DNA of 64,000 nt from Sitta carolinensis (taxonomy: Eukaryota > Chordata > Aves > Passeriformes > Sittidae): assembly GCA_032173965.1 (NCBI GenBank), contig JAVUNC010000006.1:35497870-35561869 (forward strand), read 5' to 3'. The notes under the pieces were generated by a model that was not told the origin of the DNA, searched no databases, and saw nothing but the letters and a program-made list of their open reading frames with translations. The translations under genes were made by a program, and so were the position numbers. Every line of letters starts with the position of its first letter. Position 1 is the first letter of the stretch. Positions 37,501 to 43,500 of this stretch are shown piece by piece.

Positions 37501-40500
37501 GTTATTTTGAACTTTGGGCATGTCAGTGTATGCTAAATGTTAGGACTTTGTCATTTTAATGGAAGCTTCAGTTAATGCTACTGTCATACAAACTTAAATC
37601 ATCTTTACACTCACTTGGATATAGCTAGAAGTCCAAGATCTAGAATTAGATCTTAAAATTCTGTAGCTAAGTTCCATGATTGCCCTACCCTTAAGTGTTG
37701 CTATTGGGGCTCTGTAAAGGCTCTGTTTTTAACTTTGCAAAATTCAGTACCTTTTGTTCTAAAAAGTTGGAAGAACACAGTATTTCACATAACCAACCTT
37801 GAGACAGCTCTACTATTTCTCACTACTGAATGCTCCTACAGCTCTCCTGCCCTGCTTTGAAAACTCTCTTCTGTTTGTTACAGTCTTGCAGTGAAATCTT
37901 AAGCACAGTCTCCATGCTTTATTCCTTTCCTTGTTGTTGCTTTGAGGCTAAGACACAATGGCATTACCTCTTCTTAAAAGCAAACAAGACTCAGGAATCA
38001 TAGAATGGCTTGAGTTGGAAGGGACCTTAAAGACTGTCCAGTTCCAATCCTCCTGCCATGCTCAGGCAGACCACTAGACCATGTTGCTCAAAACCTTATC
38101 CAGCCTAGCCTTGAACACTTACAGGGATGAGGCATTCCCATCCATTCCCCCTTGTCCTGTACATGGTTTTGAAAAAAGTCCTTATCCATCTTTTCTTGTA
38201 GGCTTCTTTTAGGTACTGGAAAGCAGCAATTAGGTCACCTCAAAACCTTCTCCATGCTGTACAATCCCAAATCTGTGTCATGTCACCTTGAGGCTTTCTC
38301 ATCTTGCTTGTCTTGGCTTCCTCATGTGGGGAGAAAGAATAAGAACAAACTCTTAAGAGGCAACATTCTACTTTATAGCTTTTTGAATACTGTTGAATTG
38401 GGACTGAGAATTTGGCTTCTAGAACTGAATATTTAGTTTAAAAATTGACCTTAAAATCACCCAAATATTTACTGAAAAGTTCTGGCTTTCCTTCTACTGT
38501 ATGTTAGATGATAAGAGGTTTTTTATTAAACACCTCTTTTACCACTCATTCTTTTACAGTGTCACTTGGCACCGCTTCTCTTGTCAGCACAATAGTTCTG
38601 TTTGCAGTCTGCCATTTCACAATAGGTCAATATACTGAAATGTACTGCTGGACACCAAACATTTTCTATAATTCCTGTAAATACATCACAGATAAGCTCT
38701 TAGTTATCTGGCTAAATTTTTACTTGTAAGATGTTATTCTAGTACTTCATCCACTAAGGCACTAGTTATGTTTCTTAATAAGTAGGAAAAAAAAGAAAAA
38801 AAAATGAAGATTCTAATGCTTCTAAATTCTTGTTCAAGAAGACCCTGTTCTTTCAGTTATATGAATACTGCATGTGAGGGAGCTGTTCTGCATATGTGAT
38901 TGCGGGGTGCATTTTGGGTGCATGCAGTTTTGTGCCCTGGTACTTCTCTTTCAGCATGGAAATTCTGCAGCTGTTCATTTTATTCTTCTGAGCTGTCTTC
39001 TGTGGGTAGGTGATTTTGCTGAGTATCTAGGTAGCTGGAATGGTTTAAATTGCACGGACCTTCTATGAATTTTGAATTTTTCTTTTGGTAGACTTTGTGT
39101 TTCAAAGGTTTCAAACAGCTGAATGGAACTTCATTGTTACTTTTCTTCCTAGTAAATTTTATGACTTAATTTGTTTTAGATCTAGGCTTTGATTGTCATC
39201 AACTTAGACTTTGATTTCTGTCCTTATTTGACTACATGAAAGATAGAAATGCTCCCTATTCTTATTCACATTGCCAGAGGGCTAATACAAGAAATTATTT
39301 TAAGTGTTCATGTCTACTGATCTTTGAATCAAGTTGCAAAATATTTTTTGTGCATGCATGCCCACAGTGCATCATTCTTTTATATCTAAAATTGCAAAAA
39401 ACATTTTAGACCATGGACTGGTTTTTTTTTTTTTTTTTCAGATGCAGCTGTATGTGCAAGCTGCTGAAAATAGGTTTTTAATTTTTATTCTTTTTTTTTT
39501 TTTAATTTCTGGTTTTAGTTTTTAGATAGTACCAGCCCTCTTTAAGTGTGGTTCATTCTTAACTATTAAGGCTGAGTATATTTTTTGTGGGTATATTTTA
39601 CTTAAGAAGTTCCACAGACAAATGGTGAGGTGTTTATCATCTTTAACAGTGAAACAGTAAAGAGAAGCTGGAAAGACAGAATAGGAATTCTTTTCTTTTG
39701 AAATGTTTGAATTCAAAATTTGTTGCCCTCAGTTTTGTTGTAAATATGCAATTCTAGGTTTATTCATTGCTTTCCCTGAAAGTTAGTGAAACATGAGAAC
39801 TAAGAAGTGGGTAAACTTAAATATTTAGCACTTAAAACATCAAGGAGTTTTTCTTTTTGTTCAGTGAAATGGTCAGTGAAAAAATGATTAGGTGCTCTTT
39901 AGTTGAACAGGACAGGTGTTTGGCAGAGACTTCTGTTCTTGTAGAGAGCTGCATGGATAGGTCTTTTCCATTTTAAAACTTCAATCCCTGTTTTTTCAGC
40001 ATTTTTTGGGGATCATGTTAGCTTTTGCTTCTGATCACTTGGGAAGGTATGTCCACATTTCAGCCAGCTGTTATTTTTAGATTAGCTTAACATGACTTAC
40101 TTTATGATAAATCCATTACTTTTGTGTAATGAATTATACATGCCAGGGAGTCAGTACATGGGAGAGTGTCCAAGTGGAGTGAGTATATGTGTGCACATGT
40201 GGTGTCAAAAGTTATCCAAGTGATGGGAAGCTCATTTTTGTGTAATGACTGTGTCAGTGATAACCCTTCAGTTTTTAAAAGTACTTACCATTAACTTTGT
40301 CTAGTTGCCACCATAGCTCTTGTTTGAGAAGTGAGAACTTTTCTTATCCATCCTGGTCTGTAAATAGAGACTTCCACTTAACCTTCAAAAGTTCTTGTTT
40401 TCAGTCTTAAATTTCGTGTTGCCTCATTGATGAAGGCTTTACTTTAAGTGGTGTTATCTGTTACTAAGGTGCTTCGACATTCTTTGGACAGACTGGGTCT

Positions 40501-43500
40501 GTGGAACGTTGGCATCATCGCTGCGGATGGAGATTGGAATGTCTCAAATGAGATGATAGTTGATCCCTATCTTAATGATGCTATTGAGGTAGTCGGGTAA
40601 GTGTGGGAGAAGGGAGGCATTTTAAACGTTGTTGCTTCTAATCTGTAAGTCTTCATCTCCATTTTCAAGAGTTGTATATTCTTATTTCATACTTCCTAGC
40701 TGTTTCCATTTTTTCCATCATTGTGTGCAGTGGTGATGTATTATTCTTTCTTGTCTTTGTCTCTTCTTTCAGTTTAGTACACGTGTAAGCTGACCTTATC
40801 ACTCTTCCATCATTTCTTTCAAGTGTCCATTTAGGAGCCGTTTCAGGCTTCTTAGCACTAGCAAATGATAGGAAACTTCTAACTAATCTGCATGTGCATG
40901 TTCCAAGTCAGAAAAACCTTAGGACTGAATTCTTGGTCTGCAACTGGTTTTCACTTCTGGTGATCTTGAACTTTCAGAGTGGAACTTATCACCCTGGGAC
41001 TTTCTGTGACTGCAGCTGAGATTTTTCTGGTCATATCCTAGAGCTAGAAGTTTCTGTTTCTTGCTTATATTTGATAACGGATAATATTAGAAATGCATGC
41101 ACTGACAGTAACATAGAAGTAAAAACAAGCACACAAAGTTTGTAAACTAATACAGACCATCTCAATTTTGACAGCTGGGAATGCCTTCTGTTGGTGTTTC
41201 AGCAAATGTCAACTGTTTGTCTTCACTCTTGTTCCATAATACACTTTCTTATTTGCTGCTGTTATTCCGCTGCTCTTGCTCTTTTTGTAATCTCTGGTTT
41301 CTCAAAATTATACATATTTTTTAAAAAAATTATATATTCCCAGTGGAAATTACCTATAAGGGTACAAATTGCTTACATTTGTTAACTTGTTTGTCTCTGT
41401 TGTTAATCTTAATGTGTTAAGAACGTTCTTGTGGTCACTCATGTACATTTATCCTCTGTACATAAGGAAATATGATATGCTCATCATAGTTTAAATGAAT
41501 GCATGGTTCAGGGGTTATAGTGAATCAGTTAAGCATGGATTTTATCAAGAAACTGCTTTCATATGTGTTGTACTTTTTAACACCAATCACCTGAAAATGG
41601 CTGCCTGAAAAATACCAATTAGAGTGTCAGCATTGAGTGACTCATTTGGTTTAAAATATATTTTCTTAGGTTAGGCAAGACTTGCAGCTCAGTAGGTGCA
41701 TTAGGAAATGTTTTAGTAATGATTTCCAACACAATACAGCTTGAAGAATGAATGCACCAACTGTGTACAGCTCTTGTTTCTGTAAGAGTGGCAGAATCAA
41801 GGATAGGAGTACTTGTTTTTGTTTGTGCCTTTAAAACCAAGGATGTGTTTTATTTGTTCTTTAAAATGGAATTTCTTTTTGTCAGAGGTTTTTCTTGAAT
41901 GTCATACAGATTTTTCTCCAGCTCCACCCCCCCCGCCCCCGCCACTGATCACAAAAAATGAAGAGTTAGGTTTTGTTATCTGTTAAGAAATTAAGGTTAG
42001 TACAAAATGAGAACACTGTGTTTCTCAAACAATGCTGACTCCAAGGTATTAACTACCATAGAGAGTTCTTGCTGACCTGGTGCAAGATAATAGTATTTAG
42101 GTGTCTGTCCTTCAAATGCTCAGGTTCAGAAAGTTCATACACATTTGTAGTTCAACCATCAGCGCTGTAACATCTAAGTGGCTAATCTGCTGCTTAGAGT
42201 ATCTTGCATGAAATGTGATATACTTTGTCGTTATCTGTACTTTTGTCTGTAAGAGCAAAACGTTTTTAATTTTTCCTTTTATCATGTATTTTGGAATACA
42301 GTATGGTGGAAGAAGAACATGTCCTTTTAAAGTCACGTTGTGCCTGACAGTCTTGTACGTTTTGTTTGGTATAACAGTTGTCCAAGTTGCAAAAACATGA
42401 ATTGAAGTATAGTAATTTTTTCAGCTAGTGCTGAAGAAGATGCTGCCTTTCCCAATATAAAGTTTTGATTATTTGAAAAACATTTTTTTCATTTGTCCCT
42501 TCTCTCTGTTCTTTGCTCTCCTTTTTTTTCCAAGCTGTTGAGGTACACATTGGATAAGCATGGTCTGGAGCAGGTGAGGATCATAGCCAGCGATAGACTG
42601 TGGGAGCCTATTTCCTTGGTCATGATGATTGATTCTGAGCTCCACGGAGTGGTCGATGTGATTGGGTAGGGGGTTCTCTCTGTTCTCCTTTCTTGGTGGT
42701 TTGTTTATCGTTTGTCTTCATCTTATTTATAACTAACACAGCCAAAGCTTTACCTCTCTGTACTCTTACCTGCAAGGAAAGGATTGATGCTATAAAATTT
42801 TCTTACTAACCCACATCAAATCACACAGCTCTTGTCCAAGTAACAGCCTCAGCCTTTAATTGAATCAGGAATCTTCTATTATGTTGAAGATTCCTGTTGG
42901 GCATGGTTGCAGTTTTGATGGATTGAAGATTTTTTGGACAACACTGTTTATTCTGAGAGTTTTGATTACTCTAACTGGTTTGCAAAAAGTGTTTTAGCTT
43001 TATAACTTAGTACATAGCCTTGTTATTTCCATTGGTTTGTTACTGAAATGTTTGTGATCCAGAAATTAGTTTGGGCTGTGACTCTTTGAGTTACAATGGC
43101 TTAATTCTTAGTTCCCATTTTGTTTTGATGACAAATTTGTATTTGGAAAGCATGCAACCAGCTGACTTGTTTTACTAGTACTGCGTTTTGTCATAATAAT
43201 ATTTTACTAGTAGACTAAATTGGAGATTGATTACTGACTTGATGGCTGAATGGAAAAGTGTGTATGAAATGTTCATTAACTTTTTTTTTTTACAGGAGCT
43301 CTAAACTTTACTTACTAGGTACCATAAACTTGCCTGGCCCAATCACATGCTTCGAATGTGTCAGTTCCTTGCTTCAATTTGAATCTTTTCCTTTCATTTT
43401 TATATATCTGACCCATAGGAGGTGTAGAAATGAAGGCTTTTTCTGCAAGTGCAGAAGGAAGTCAATGTCATCTACTCTTGCAATCAATCAATCAATAAAT

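Follow-up and report, generated by a model that had tools for sequence, protein, structure and literature searches.

Two tandem copies of exon 7 in the GALC gene of Sitta carolinensis: an apparently ancient and very probably alternative exon pair

GALC is lysosomal galactosylceramidase, and its loss causes Krabbe disease. Among the closest described systems are tandem duplicated exon substitutions; the available text of PMC9741552 lists 236 such events in the human gene set and describes most as ancient. For GALC itself, the section considered of PMC12008523, which deals with how the GALC exons evolved, gives 17 as the average exon number and describes skipped exons in the collared flycatcher, and leaves an alternative exon 7 unmentioned. 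In the literature searched, which consisted of open PMC texts with most subscription papers outside, we found no description of an alternative GALC exon 7. A word search of the main texts, as available and apart from supplements, of PMC9741552, PMC5740500, and PMC9013439 gave no occurrence of "GALC"; "exon 7" is absent from PMC3052420; and the available portion of PMC10002607, a review of zebrafish GALCa/GALCb, does not mention exon-7 isoforms.

The 64-kb window (the whole stretch of Sitta carolinensis DNA analysed, 64,000 nucleotides) contains a complete GALC gene, in which exon 7 is present as two homologous versions, 7a and 7b. Sequence, predicted fold, and both catalytic glutamate motifs place the product with GALC in glycoside hydrolase family 59. 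The features are as follows.

28427..28594, + strand, GALC exon 1 (coding part, N-terminal segment)
29456..29524, + strand, GALC exon 2
31422..31485, + strand, GALC exon 3
33473..33586, + strand, GALC exon 4
34967..35106, + strand, GALC exon 5
37274..37312, + strand, GALC exon 6, 39 nt, IWNER with the acid/base glutamate
40469..40596, + strand, GALC exon 7a, putative ancestral-type alternative exon, 128 nt (42 codons plus 2 bases)
40588..40590, + strand, candidate internal donor in 7a, GAG/GTAGTC, in-frame 7a+7b possible
40597..42534, + strand, 7a-7b intron, 1938 nt
42535..42665, + strand, GALC exon 7b, putative derived-type exon (mouse GALC type), 131 nt (43 codons plus 2 bases)
44896..45051, + strand, GALC exon 8, AHYPGT and nucleophile motif SSED
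47112..47236, + strand, GALC exon 9
48428..48555, + strand, GALC exon 10
49011..49100, + strand, GALC exon 11
50390..50482, + strand, GALC exon 12 (tblastn extent, approximate ends)
50805..50949, + strand, GALC exon 13
51329..51509, + strand, GALC exon 14
53746..53909, + strand, GALC exon 15
55498..55575, + strand, GALC exon 16 (tblastn extent, approximate ends)
56587..56730, + strand, GALC exon 17, last coding exon (tblastn extent)

A tblastn search with four segment queries found no third exon-7 copy in the window (the next match after 7a and 7b had E = 0.063), and Rfam gave no window match at gathering scores.

A sequence-only reading had placed 7a at 40469-40596 and 7b at 42535-42665, and re-reading of the sequence bore out these coordinates together with the AG/GT flanks, open frames, phase-0 entry, and exit after two bases that it had described for both exons. 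Its figure of about 42% identity was reproduced as 18 of 44 alignment columns (41%), with a BLAST match of 17/43 (E = 8e-9). The two exons are adjacent and homologous, have compatible phase, and share the same flanking exons. As had also been noted, splicing 7a to 7b at their outer donors creates GGC TGT TGA and hence a stop, and splicing exon 6 to exon 8 shifts the frame and leads to a stop within exon 8. One exon 7 keeps the frame, and both or none break it, except at the internal donor (40588/40589): the claim that only single inclusion yields a full enzyme is correct for the splice sites then considered, but use of the donor after 40588 would allow 7a and 7b together in frame. The pigeon protein model P0102 matches this arrangement, with most of 7a followed by all of 7b, while P0076 has 7a followed by part of 7b; these two are the only ones among 136 listed proteins with both segments together. 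Scored against a consensus matrix, 7a has a weak acceptor (4.6 bits) and a strong donor (10.3 bits), and 7b has the opposite (acceptor 9.5 bits, donor 4.9 bits). Minor-spliceosome incompatibility was set aside because none of the 15 exons that were scored, all but exons 12, 16, and 17, has a U12-like donor, as was steric exclusion via a short intron, the 7a-7b intron being 1938 nt long.

To place the pair among relatives, we used three protein searches, all seeded with 7a or a 7a-like segment, which listed 136 proteins altogether, one search contributing the best 120 of 4026 matches. The 43-residue 7a-type segment was found in 99 of these proteins (98 and a sponge) and the 44-residue 7b-type segment in 29, counts that give no usage ratio since every seed was 7a or 7a-like; in the other 8 the segment was not captured by the pattern. 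The database was clustered at 90%, so that a cluster can conceal an isoform set apart by exon 7 alone and a missing row says little; the rows listed hold no shark, no lamprey, and one sponge as sole invertebrate. Among the matches listed, birds, frogs, and teleosts have both types, and the 7a type occurs further in snake, caecilians, coelacanth, and sturgeon; among the proteins compared, the 7b type occurs further in gar, reedfish, axolotl, platypus, and mouse. With a 7a-only query, 29 of 30 candidates fell within E 10 and came from birds, frogs, and teleosts wherever the organism was stated; most were named galactocerebrosidase, many as isoform X2, with P0021 nameless and P0017 a "hypothetical protein". 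Database isoforms of both types exist, mostly as automatic predictions. Because its 2,250-base contig is too short for the intron-rich GALC gene, P0021, a 7a protein of 662 aa, is probably transcript-derived.

The two classes are separated by a one-residue indel beside W23, 7a being the shorter, and by near-fixed differences at V1/L1 (100% each), A19/S19 (98% and 100%), and G21/N21 (97% each). These residues are diagnostic but not absolute, because the caecilian 7a segments P0046 and P0051 carry the 7b-like ASDN motif. Mean identity is 0.70 within 7a, 0.76 within 7b, and 0.49 between classes (maximum 0.605). In trees and profiles that rest on a segment of 43-44 columns, IQ-TREE (23 7a, 30 7b, 10 bacterial, and sponge segments) gave UFboot values of 96 for the 7a split and 98 for 7b, and FastTree gave 7b a support of 0.85. 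In fishes, same-species isoforms are alike except for the swapped exon: three of five pairs have no differences outside exon 7, and the remaining two have 4 gap columns (Dicentrarchus) and 3 substitutions (Periophthalmus). The proposal of long selection on both exons is upheld by the occurrence of both types, with fixed length and near-fixed class residues, in fishes, amphibians, and birds, and further by these isoform pairs, in which exon 7 is the sole or nearly the sole difference. The sequence-only reading's call to look for broken 7a copies in close relatives was answered in part: among the retrieved proteins, which include those of passerines, 7a is intact.

In this intron, a frame of 42 random codons would be open ~8% of the time; we set aside a chance open frame as the origin of 7a not because its frame is open but because 43-residue 7a-type segments recur in relatives, cross-species conservation being decisive. 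It could also be argued that 7a is a dead or decaying remnant of the duplication, annotated by homology and giving no functional protein. Consistent with this, 7a has diverged more than 7b in 9 of 10 pairs of fish genera, its acceptor is weak in Sitta carolinensis, and a 7a-seeded protein search is blind to species in which it is broken. Nevertheless, bird-to-fish identity over five fish genera is 0.53-0.74 for 7a (0.68-0.77 for 7b), which is unexpected for neutral sequence over such time, and the 43-residue length is fixed and the class residues near-fixed in birds, snake, amphibians, coelacanth, and ray-finned fishes; we consider a dead 7a highly improbable. Identity of 7a between Sitta carolinensis and coelacanth is only 0.50.

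Because both types span birds, frogs, teleosts, and other bony vertebrates, the duplication is placed by the sequences compared before the ray-finned/lobe-finned split and the diversification of bony vertebrates. As to polarity, the sponge GALC segment favours the 7a profile by 12.6 bits, and 7a also gives the higher score for 72 of 79 bacterial loci, the other 7, and also P0138, scoring better with 7b; in 20 equal-size resamplings, 7a was preferred by 68-73 of 78-79 bacterial loci. The 7b insertion is absent from 77 of 78 bacterial rows in the alignment used. A contig scan found no GALC relatives in viral contigs. FastTree placed the sponge beside three bacterial rows rather than with 7a, and 7b beside another bacterial row, and the polarity therefore rests on profile scores and the indel. 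From the sponge and bacterial scores, 7a looks like the ancestral type and 7b, the exon of mouse, like the derived, younger copy. Mouse GALC and platypus P0115 are 7b-type, as is the human GALC protein.

A further alternative is that 7a is mainly a regulatory (poison) exon, with its coding content incidental. When both exons are included through the usual donors, a stop follows at once, which would lower GALC mRNA as such a role demands; however, 7a shows amino-acid constraint and likeness to the sponge and most bacterial enzymes, and the aligned 7a isoforms are full length with all later exons included. We give this explanation very little weight, though 7a may have a regulatory side effect alongside a coding role. 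Our preferred explanation, which we hold to be very likely, is that 7a and 7b are an ancient tandem-duplicated, alternatively used exon pair. After an ancient duplication, 7a would have retained the older sequence type and 7b diverged, and each would provide an equivalent piece of the catalytic (beta/alpha)8 barrel. An mRNA with one exon 7 is predicted to give a full enzyme, whereas double inclusion (usual donors) or double skipping would give an early stop, with nonsense-mediated decay expected. On frame logic and the database isoforms, real alternative use is very likely, in which splicing would select one copy per transcript, probably by tissue.

In the barrel, the exon-7 segment follows the acid/base glutamate of exon 6 and precedes the nucleophile of exon 8, and the swap covers the end of helix 4, strand 5, the following loop, helix 5, and the start of strand 6. 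AlphaFold2 predicted the 7a isoform P0003 with a mean pLDDT of 92 (93-98 in the exon-7a blocks), and the model superposes on mouse GALC with 1.0 A rmsd over 637 residues. The GALC fold of this 7a isoform is predicted with confidence. Another prediction, whose alignment was shallow and headed by coelacanth P0047, was of poor quality (mean pLDDT 49.5) and was set aside. The sole 7a/7b indel maps to about mouse residue 215, the site of the Krabbe mutation E215K, and 62% of 7b rows have Q at position 24. E215K is reported to adjoin the saposin A site and to leave trafficking normal (PMC5764952; PMC4949656); E215 makes no direct saposin A contact (PMC5764952) and is located away from the active site (PMC4949656). 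Because the indel lies at about this residue, reported beside the saposin A site, we tentatively propose from position that the swap changes the coupling of the active-site mouth to saposin A or substrate, and that a splicing switch between 7a and 7b may retune this coupling. With a similar, modest chance, both isoforms are made, share their substrate and saposin needs, and differ in nothing but stability or where they are expressed, as a redundant or developmental switch; the catalytic motifs in exons 6 and 8 are common to both isoforms and the fold predicted for a 7a form is in essence the mouse GALC fold, but the class-specific residues long conserved around strand 5 and the following loop suggest distinct constraints.

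Taken together, the preferred reading of two alternatively used exons extends to a more speculative scenario, which we think rather unlikely as a whole: most bony vertebrates would make an ancestral-type 7a and a derived 7b enzyme by exon choice, the 7b loop next to where saposin A binds having been reshaped; the 7a form would act on a different galactolipid or have different saposin needs; and mammals would have lost 7a, leaving human and mouse Krabbe biology with the derived half only. How GALC couples to saposin A matters for Krabbe disease, and an alternative barrel segment by the saposin site, kept in birds, amphibians, and fishes, is a ready natural experiment. If the pair is as we propose, GALC work in bird, frog, and fish may have pooled two different enzymes, and the familiar mouse exon would be a derived copy; should 7a turn out to be absent from mammals, they would have lost an isoform of a disease gene.

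Compared with mouse GALC (GH59; PDB 3zr5, 4ccc, 5nxb), fold and catalytic motifs are shared and the mouse exon-7 segment is 7b-type; relative to it, the 7a isoform lacks one residue after W23 and differs in sequence around strand 5 and the loop. In a known alternative-exon pair of another metabolic enzyme, one or the other exon is used, as proposed for GALC, and, in the available text, distant branch points restrict intron length there, compared with 1938 nt between 7a and 7b. With the human tandem duplicated exon substitution events, as described in the part of PMC9741552 available, the GALC pair shares adjacent homologous exons and the swapping of one homologous region; it differs in being seen in non-mammalian vertebrates and in lying within the barrel of a lysosomal hydrolase. 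Judged from the segments compared, the GALC pair is not peculiar to Sitta carolinensis.

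The complete GALC gene lies on the + strand of the window, where exons 1 to 17 were placed by tblastn with the human protein and the sparrow GALC isoform P0003, with approximate boundaries for exons 12, 16 and 17. Inside the exon limits, P0003 is 90-100% identical to window exons 1-11, which places the source near the passerines. The features considered are:

18507-19544, - strand: intact GPCR reading frame, 345 residues
34967-35106, + strand: GALC exon 5
37274-37312, + strand: GALC exon 6, acid/base glutamate
40469-40596, + strand: GALC exon 7a, 43-residue segment
42535-42665, + strand: GALC exon 7b, 44-residue segment of the mouse GALC type
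44896-45051, + strand: GALC exon 8, nucleophile motif

The sequence-only reading proposed that 7a and 7b are mutually exclusive versions of one exon. Both lie where it placed them, with AG ahead and GT behind, entry in phase 0 and exit after two bases, and they are homologous (BLAST E = 8e-9; 18/44 columns or 41% identity, against the earlier estimate of about 42%). Joining exons 6-7a-8 or 6-7b-8 keeps the frame open through exon 11, while joining 7a to 7b creates a TGA at the junction and joining exon 6 to exon 8 without either copy leads to a stop in exon 8. The claim that only single inclusion gives a full enzyme therefore stands at the usual splice sites but is not absolute by frame: an internal GT in 7a (GAG/GTAGTC, after 40588) gives an in-frame 7a-7b join, with a predicted protein containing most of 7a and then all of 7b. 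Precisely this layout is present in P0102, a pigeon model, and in the database protein P0076 a portion of 7b comes after 7a; these double-segment layouts may be annotation joins.

Scored with a consensus matrix, 7a has a weak acceptor and a strong donor and 7b a strong acceptor and a weak donor, and the successive introns at the pair measure 3156, 1938 (7a-7b) and 2230 nt. Given these splice-site strengths and intron lengths, the choice of one copy is likely enforced by regulated splicing and decay of wrong products and not by steric or spliceosome-type exclusion. The 7a protein P0021 is encoded on a 2,250-base contig, which is probably a transcript because it is too short for GALC with introns like those in the window, where the gene spans ~28 kb.

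Among the exons scored with the same matrix, exon 8 has the weakest acceptor (1.0 bits). In three bird proteins (P0008, P0009 and P0012, each isoform X3 or 3), 7a is joined directly to exon 9, in frame and without the nucleophile motif. Exon 6, which codes for the acid/base motif, is just 39 nt; in P0007 (godwit) and P0042 (dwarf clawed frog) it is absent and exon 5 is joined to 7a in frame. Identity to the human protein is only 0.70, 0.62 and 0.58 for exons 5, 6 and 7b, below the 0.86-0.96 of exons 2-4 and 9-10. The neighboring GPCR frame has the psychosine receptor, GPR65, as its best PDB match (E = 2e-113). Psychosine is a GALC substrate; the receptor named for it adjoins GALC on the opposite strand.

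A look for 7a in other vertebrates had been suggested from the sequence alone, and in protein searches the 7a-type segment recurs in other birds, snakes, amphibians and fishes. With the 7a segment alone, 29 of 30 candidates passed at E up to 10 (passerines, godwit, eagles, guineafowl, frogs, cods, salmons and other teleosts), most of them under the name galactocerebrosidase, with P0021 nameless and P0017 a 'hypothetical protein'; a search seeded with 7a is blind to species with a broken or lost 7a. Pooling this search with a full-length search using frog P0011 (120 of 4026 matches listed) and a probe search (5 of 13 candidates listed, including two snakes and the sponge Oscarella) gave 136 listed proteins, P0003 to P0138. 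An exon-7 segment pattern captured 128 of these, 99 with exactly 43 residues (7a-type, sponge counted) and 29 with exactly 44 (7b-type). The other eight are P0007 and P0042, which have 7a without exon 6; P0134, with a fragment of 7a; P0109, whose 7a carries additional residues; P0076 and P0102, which combine pieces of both segments; and P0137 and P0138, which are not vertebrate-like. Among listed proteins, 7a ranges over birds, snakes, frogs, caecilians, coelacanth, sturgeon, paddlefish, bowfin and teleosts; 7b is found in Sitta carolinensis, a pigeon, frogs, axolotl, platypus, gar, reedfish and teleosts, plus mouse. Because ray-finned and lobe-finned lineages each contain both types, the duplication must date back at least to their split, roughly 430 million years ago.

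The segments form two classes: mean identity is 0.70 among 7a segments (the sponge counted), 0.76 among 7b segments and 0.49 across the two classes (maximum cross-class pair, 0.605). Near-fixed differences (7a vs 7b) are V vs L at position 1, A vs S at 19, G vs N at 21, and one extra 7b residue beside W23. A tree was built from 23 7a and 30 7b segments together with 10 from bacteria and the one from the sponge; in it, 7a and 7b each formed one group (UFboot 96 and 98, respectively; FastTree support for 7b, 0.85). Five fish species have both forms, and three of the five pairs are identical outside exon 7; the Dicentrarchus pair differs there by 4 gap columns and the Periophthalmus pair by 3 substitutions. 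Compared with five fish genera, Sitta carolinensis 7a is 0.53-0.74 and 7b 0.68-0.77 identical to its counterpart; across 10 pairs of fish genera, 7a shows the lower conservation in 9. The Sitta carolinensis 7a is just 0.50 identical to coelacanth 7a and 0.60 to that of a snake. The caecilian 7a segments of P0046 and P0051 carry 7b-like ASDN instead of AADG, possibly through convergence or local conversion between both exons.

As to which copy is older, 79 of 80 loci of bacterial GALC relatives were scored against 7a and 7b profiles, and 72 fit 7a better and 7 fit 7b better; with equal-size random training sets (20 repeats), 68-73 of 78-79 loci favored 7a. Of 78 bacterial rows with letters at that position in the alignment used, 77 lack the additional residue of 7b, though their loops immediately ahead of it differ in length. 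By profile score, the sponge favors 7a by 12.6 bits and P0137 by 9.0, and P0138 favors 7b by 1.6. In the FastTree tree the sponge grouped with three bacterial rows and 7b adjoins another bacterial row, so that the tree itself leaves the root unsettled. On balance, these sequence comparisons suggest that 7a is the ancestral type and 7b, the type of the mouse enzyme, the derived one.

No description of the GALC exon-7 pair was found in the literature searched; public databases already contain isoforms of both types, most of which carry automatic names, and these appear unremarked. New here are the occurrence in GALC, the age of the pair, its polarity and where it sits in a disease enzyme; the kind of feature to which the pair belongs, tandem duplicated exon substitution, is already known (PMC9741552).
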